Positions 3,211 through 4,164 of a stretch of 64,000 bases of DNA are shown piece by piece. The first letter of the stretch is position 1; each line of letters starts with the position of its first letter. The DNA comes from Lentisphaerota bacterium (GTDB lineage: Bacteria > Verrucomicrobiota > Lentisphaeria > Victivallales > UBA1829). The notes under the pieces are model-generated. The model had not been told where the DNA came from and searched no databases. It saw only the letters and a list, made by a program, of their open reading frames with translations. Both the position numbers and the translations under genes were made by a program. The stretch is from assembly GCA_015061915.1 (NCBI GenBank), contig SUVR01000005.1, forward strand, positions 1 through 64,000, read 5' to 3'.

Positions 3211-4164
3211 TCAGAAAAGGCTCAACTGTTCCAATTCTTCGCCTTTTTCTTCCGGTTCGGCAGGTATGACGGGGGCGGCTGCAGGCTTGGTTGCCGACAT
3301 CTTATCCAGGTCACGGAGGATGCTTTTCAGTTCCTTCTGTTCCGCAATGGCACGGATCTTATCCAGATCCACCACCCGGCGGGTGATGTGGTTCTCCGAC
3401 CACGTGACCCCCTCCGGCGGCGCAGTAACAAGCCGGACAAGCTCGATATTCTTTCTCAGCAGATCGGCTCCCTGTTCGATCTTGTTCCTTAACGTTTCCC
3501 GTTCGATCTCATGGACTTTTGCCAGCATATTCTCAATGGATCCGAACCGGTTGATCAGCTGTGCCGCCGTCTTCGGTCCAACCCCGGCAATACCGGGAAT
3601 GTTGTCCGCATTATCTCCGATCATGGCAAGATAATCCACGATCGTAGAAGCGGGAACGCCGAATTTTTCCTCCACTTCTTTCAGACCCCGTTTGGCAAAG
3701 CCTTTGCCCGCCTGATCCGGCACCAGCATTTCGATCTTTTCGTCAATGACCTGTGCAATATCCTTATCTGCCGAGATGATCCGGATGTCCTGATCCTTCT
3801 CAAAATGCAGCGCCAGCGAGGCGATCAGATCGTCCGCTTCCGTGTCCTCTGCTTCGATGATGTTCCACCCGAAAGCGGCAATCAGCTCCCGGATGCAGGG
3901 CAGCTGCGCCTGCAGATCTTCTGGGCAGGGCGGACGGTTTGCTTTGTAATCCGGCGCCAGTGCGAGGCGGTGGGGCGGTCTCCCTTTGTCAAAGACGAAT
4001 GCGCCGGGCGCACCGGGGTGATCCTCCTCCAGCTTCATCAGAAAGCGCATCATGGCAAAGATGGCGTTGGTAGGATCGCCGTTTTTGTTGGAAAGGGCAC
4101 GGACCGCATAGTAGCCGCGGAAGATCTGTGCATAGGAATCGATCAGAAGAACAGGATCGGACAT
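3211..4164 (-). CDS. Stand-alone 5'-3' exonuclease (Pol I N-domain / flap nuclease type) with beta-clamp motif
   Basis: 317 residues equivalent to the 5'-3' exonuclease domain of DNA polymerase I, with no polymerase domain. It probably removes RNA primers and 5' flaps. Metal-binding acids are present: D9, D59 (FVFDKG), E106/E109/D111/D112 (EAEDTEADD), D133/D135 (SADKD) and D184/D187 (GDNADNIPG). A helix-hairpin-helix DNA-binding segment follows (GIAGVGPKTAAQL, 191-203). After a Pro/Ala/Glu linker the protein ends in QLSLF (313-317), a textbook beta sliding-clamp binding pentapeptide. ATG at 4164 is chosen because AAAGGAG precedes it by about 8 bases; an upstream in-frame ATG at 4260 would overlap the preceding gene. 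It follows the Gfo/Idh gene by 13 bases. Confidence 0.9.
   Translation of the reverse strand: MSDPVLLIDSYAQIFRGYYAVRALSNKNGDPTNAIFAMMRFLMKLEEDHPGAPGAFVFDKGRPPHRLALAPDYKANRPPCPEDLQAQLPCIRELIAAFGWNIIEAEDTEADDLIASLALHFEKDQDIRIISADKDIAQVIDEKIEMLVPDQAGKGFAKRGLKEVEEKFGVPASTIVDYLAMIGDNADNIPGIAGVGPKTAAQLINRFGSIENMLAKVHEIERETLRNKIEQGADLLRKNIELVRLVTAPPEGVTWSENHITRRVVDLDKIRAIAEQKELKSILRDLDKMSATKPAAAPVIPAEPEEKGEELEQLSLF

Follow-up and report, generated by a model that had tools for sequence, protein, structure and literature searches.

Primer removal in a Lentisphaerota bacterium may be run from the clamp, resembling that of human cells

The window analyzed here, a stretch of 64,000 nucleotides from a Lentisphaerota bacterium (GCA_015061915.1, contig SUVR01000005.1, positions 1 to 64,000), carries on its minus strand, at 3211..4164, a gene for a standalone 5'-3' exonuclease/flap endonuclease (FEN) of 317 amino acids, delimited by its open reading frame and Pfam matches. 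The ATG start codon (4162-4164) is preceded by a GGAG a few bases 5' of it and is the start also found in relatives, and the frame closes with a TGA stop codon (3211-3213). On the same strand, the N-terminal nuclease domain (PF02739, 5_3_exonuc_N; residues 5-169, 3658..4152; E 9e-43) is followed by the C-terminal SAM-fold/H3TH part, which contains D184 and D187 (PF01367, 5_3_exonuc; residues 171-258, 3391..3654; E 2.5e-24), then by a flexible Pro/Glu/Ala linker (residues 293-312, 3229..3288), and finally, at the extreme C-terminus, by the putative clamp-binding motif QLSLF (residues 313-317, 3214..3228), assigned from sequence and orthologue conservation. Translation of the minus-strand frame gives ...PAAAPVIPAEPEEKGEELEQLSLF as the C-terminal residues. 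The two exonuclease domains are the sole Pfam matches and a polymerase domain is absent from the protein, which bears out the claim of an earlier note on this DNA that a free-standing exonuclease here ends in QLSLF. The note had placed the motif at 3211-3225, correctly at the end of the gene but one codon off, as these positions hold the stop codon plus LSLF. Its reading of the pentapeptide as a canonical bacterial clamp-binding sequence agrees with the match of QLSLF to the consensus QL[S/D]LF or QxxLF (PMC12309361).

The scores of the protein fall below the cut-offs of all NCBIfam models for Pol I and for the named standalone exonucleases, and it is not of the FEN1 type, reaching 19 bits with the fen_arch model, whose cut-off is 352, and ending in QLSLF with no PIP box. 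Residues D9, D59, E109, D111, D112, D133, D135, D184, and D187 are invariant among 46 orthologue sequences and match Taq Pol I in the alignment. By sequence, the nearest solved structures are the Taq Pol I N-domain, full-length mycobacterial Pol I, a plant-type plastid exonuclease, and M. smegmatis FenA; the best fold matches of the predicted structure, plastid exonuclease 1, the M. smegmatis FEN, and ExoIX, are neighbors that agree with the sequence. Thus, by its domains, active-site residues, and predicted fold, the protein is a member of the bacterial standalone FEN/5'-3' exonuclease family, with its activity predicted. The AlphaFold model, whose input included the 46 orthologues, has a pLDDT of 94, with block means of 93-99 as far as residue 290, dropping to 56-62 over the tail, where no secondary structure is present beyond residue 292, in keeping with the flexible Pro/Glu linker that the earlier note had described ahead of the motif. 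The nuclease is thus predicted to be rigid and its tail to be flexible, as a tether would look.

The surroundings of the gene provide no operon argument, because iPGM, which lies upstream of FEN in the two relatives scanned, with a similar-sized ORF there in four more, is missing from this position in the window. Elsewhere in the window, positions 9585-58136 of the plus strand form one open frame of 16,183 amino acids (48.5 kb). It has the look of a giant surface protein, and a Pfam search in four pieces found DUF4347 close to its beginning and two sites with right-handed beta-helix repeats.

The genome, assembled in 31 contigs with 97% completeness and no contamination, contains one match to PF02739, the window FEN, and no family-A polymerase (PF00476) was found in it by a search that was positive in 10 of 14 control genomes. 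The FEN is therefore the only Pol I-type flap nuclease of the genome. The earlier note had portrayed free-standing exonucleases as backups for Pol I and had proposed checking Pol I for the absence of its 5'-3' exonuclease domain; the outcome is stronger than expected, since the genome is without any Pol I, and the backup framing fails here because no Pol I remains. Among 100 relatives, PF00476 was not found in 84, including the single-contig genomes G036 and G085, and the 16 matches comprise just five strong, full-length ones, the others being partial or divergent. A Pol I hidden in assembly gaps was rejected as an explanation, because single-contig relatives miss it too. Loss of Pol I covers most of the order. 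Across the phylum, in a survey of 289 genomes with completeness of at least 85%, PF00476 was not found in 166, while the FEN domain is kept in 282, with two copies in only three.

The window FEN was also considered as a fragment recently split from Pol I. In a tree built by a quick method with a midpoint root, a branch with an SH-aLRT of 99 separates the Pol I N-domains from the standalone FENs, which leaves such a recent origin unsupported. From these two separate groups, the standalone FEN looks like an old, distinct lineage. Among 20 full-length Pol I proteins from the phylum, none was found to have a C-terminal clamp motif. Some genomes depart from the general pattern. In genus g10 (L032, L033), Pol I has no FEN domain and its gene lies directly upstream of a putative ligA, PolB is absent, and the FEN has a clamp-like tail, raising the question of whether a polymerase-only Pol I was re-acquired or retained. 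In G097, contig C69 carries a full-length Pol I about 20 kb from a standalone FEN with a clamp tail (L073, L207); this Pol I clusters with that of the distant family f39, which suggests transfer. Both sampled members of family f5 (G039, G046), which are fragmented assemblies, show the reverse of the usual situation, with a family-A match and no PF02739 match.

A lone QLSLF would be weak evidence for clamp binding, because DNA patterns encoding QLxLF followed by a stop arise by accident in this genome, with 12 occurrences in any frame over 2.49 Mb and 13 in the reversed control; the only convincing one that closes a recognizable gene, over the whole genome, is that of the FEN. Conservation among orthologues decides the matter. 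The order of the window genome contributed 95 standalone FENs, spread over 41 genera, and the rest of the phylum 38. Of the 95 order FENs, 71 have the pattern Qxx[LMF]F or Qxx[LMF]xF in their final 10 residues, where shuffled tails predict 0.34, as do 23 of 41 when one FEN per genus is taken (0.15 expected); in the rest of the phylum, the strict motif stands at the end of 21 of 38 (0.24 expected). The earlier note had named a tail not conserved in close relatives as what would refute its reading, and these counts show the opposite. An ending of the form [LM]F or [LM]xF is present in 93 of the 95.

As shuffling keeps shared ancestry uncorrected, the contrast in conservation along the protein is the better argument. 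The mean frequency of the top residue is 0.61 in the nuclease domain, falls to 0.25 in the linker (residues 286-312), and returns to 0.61 in the last five columns, where F reaches 0.95, Q 0.73, and L 0.65 in the order alignment; F317 is invariant in 46 diverse orthologues. The linker also varies in length, with 42-98 residues C-terminal to the domain among the order FENs. Tail variants include QLELF, QGELF, QMDLF, QMEFDF, and TPDLFG, and the strict consensus is missing in 24 of the 95, mostly those with TPDLF-type endings, so Q is not universal. Elsewhere in the phylum, several FENs (families f35, f44, f55, and f58) have no terminal motif although a family-A polymerase was not found in those genomes. 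Both kinds of exception count against the clamp reading. In 51 of the 95 order FENs, the linker holds a further, internal (D)DLF element that may be a second, weak clamp motif; in the window FEN, the terminal motif is the only one. A second FEN-like gene in one relative (L041; genome G057, contig C39) ends in NPEKRLIP, its tail corresponding to another frame of a linker, possibly owing to a frameshift or a stray contig.

The genome encodes one DnaN, which aligns over its full length with E. coli beta and retains in that alignment the segments ATDGKRLAL, YPNYRQVIP, and YVIMPMR, which form the peptide pocket. Motifs of the same type can be read in other polymerases of the genome, namely an internal QGSLF in DnaE, a C-terminal QMELF in PolB, and QGDLF in a Y-family polymerase (PolY). 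DnaE is present in one copy in most of the 41 genomes searched, and PolB occurs in the window genome and in 24 of the 41, being absent from genera g6, g8, and g10. PolB proteins of the order (L183, L186-L202) often have clamp-like ends (QMELF, PDLFS, DDLF, QMNFDF), several having none. The window genome has two RNase HII-type genes, as do nearly all of the 41 relatives.

Taken together, we consider it probable that the cell's only Pol I-type FEN, in a lineage that has lost Pol I, docks via its flexible C-terminal tail on DnaN and cuts primer flaps at the clamp; that the tail binds and recruits the FEN there, that the FEN acts on Okazaki fragments, and which polymerase fills the gap are inferred from sequence, modeling, and analogy. 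The tail motif would dock in the peptide pocket of the DnaN ring, holding the FEN at clamps that remain on finished Okazaki fragments behind the fork. The gap would be filled by a clamp-bound polymerase, DnaE or PolB, and the same polymerase would displace the RNA primer into a flap, an RNase HII-type enzyme perhaps having shortened the primer first. The tethered FEN would then cut the flap, and ligation would follow. QLSLF peptides bind the clamp, with a Kd of 3.8 µM for B. subtilis DnaN and sub-micromolar affinity for the E. coli clamp (PMC12309361), and a transposase tail bearing QLSLF binds clamps from three species (PMC4549789). What the FEN would do at Okazaki fragments, and with which polymerase, is based on other organisms: in E. 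coli, the clamp accelerates the cutting of flaps by Pol I (PMC6010275), and in B. subtilis, DnaE carries out strand displacement from a gap and, helped by FEN, finishes Okazaki fragments in vitro when Pol I is absent (PMC13082043).

The tail might instead bind the clamp mainly for repair, in ribonucleotide excision, long-patch base excision, or gap processing, leaving most Okazaki primers to RNase HII-type enzymes, a division of labor compatible with the two such genes of the genome and their presence in nearly all of the 41 relatives. RNase H enzymes, however, generally leave the last ribonucleotide. Repair enzymes do commonly carry clamp motifs (PMC9690074), but B. subtilis cannot do without some 5' nuclease, the double deletion of polA and fenA being lethal (PMC13082043), and the window FEN is the sole Pol I-type one in its genome, so that we regard a mainly repair-related role as unlikely. 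It is quite unlikely, too, that the tail serves a partner other than DnaN, or a stability signal that resembles a clamp motif by accident; short hydrophobic C-terminal motifs can have different partners and the Q at position 1 is missing in some families, but the genome has the same type of motif in DnaE, PolB, and PolY, and the exact pentapeptide is the clamp motif of PolC, with measured binding (PMC12309361). Finally, a chance ending has a negligible probability, since, short as the motif is and with its stop-linked DNA pattern recurring about 12 times over all frames of the genome, its retention at the C-terminus of 71 of 95 orthologues behind a diverged linker of variable length already refutes it.

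Bacterial Okazaki fragment maturation is taught as nick translation by Pol I. A large part of the phylum does without Pol I, and the remaining nuclease bears a clamp tag that is absent from the Pol I proteins of relatives. With somewhat less than even confidence, we propose that maturation in the Pol I-less lineages of the phylum is eukaryote-like and organized by the clamp, with DnaE or a B-family polymerase displacing the primer and the FEN cutting on the same DnaN ring, and that loss of Pol I was tolerated because an old standalone FEN was, or became, a client of the clamp. These lineages are a natural setting in which to ask what polymerase takes over gap filling when Pol I is absent, and whether a nuclease tethered to the clamp can, as a separate protein, take the place of a nuclease-polymerase fusion. 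The five-residue tail yields a cheap and clean prediction, binding to DnaN.

The absence of Pol I together with a standalone FEN that is presumed to replace it has already been described for Verrucomicrobia and Tenericutes (PMC12926913, 2026), and the window FEN belongs to this group. The main text of that study gives clamp motifs for PolA2, PolB, and PolY, and none for the standalone FENs. For a clamp-binding motif on any bacterial FEN, we found no report in the open-access main texts searched.

Among known systems, B. subtilis FenA (YpcP/ExoR), M. smegmatis FenA, and E. coli ExoIX/Xni share the two-domain nuclease and the fold of the window FEN, but these three species have Pol I beside their discrete FEN, whereas the window genome has none. 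B. subtilis FenA is well studied and acts in Okazaki processing, and the main text of the 2023 paper on it makes no mention of the clamp (PMC10191290). Eukaryotic and archaeal FEN1, which is a distant fold relative (TM about 0.6) of a different family, also carries a flexible C-terminal clamp tag and likely works alike with PCNA, although its tag is a PIP box, whereas that of the window FEN would be a bacterial pentapeptide for DnaN. The closest parallel to the tag itself is B. subtilis PolC, which bears the same QLSLF, likewise at the extreme C-terminus and with measured DnaN binding (PMC12309361), so that a pentapeptide known there from a replicative polymerase is found here on a nuclease.
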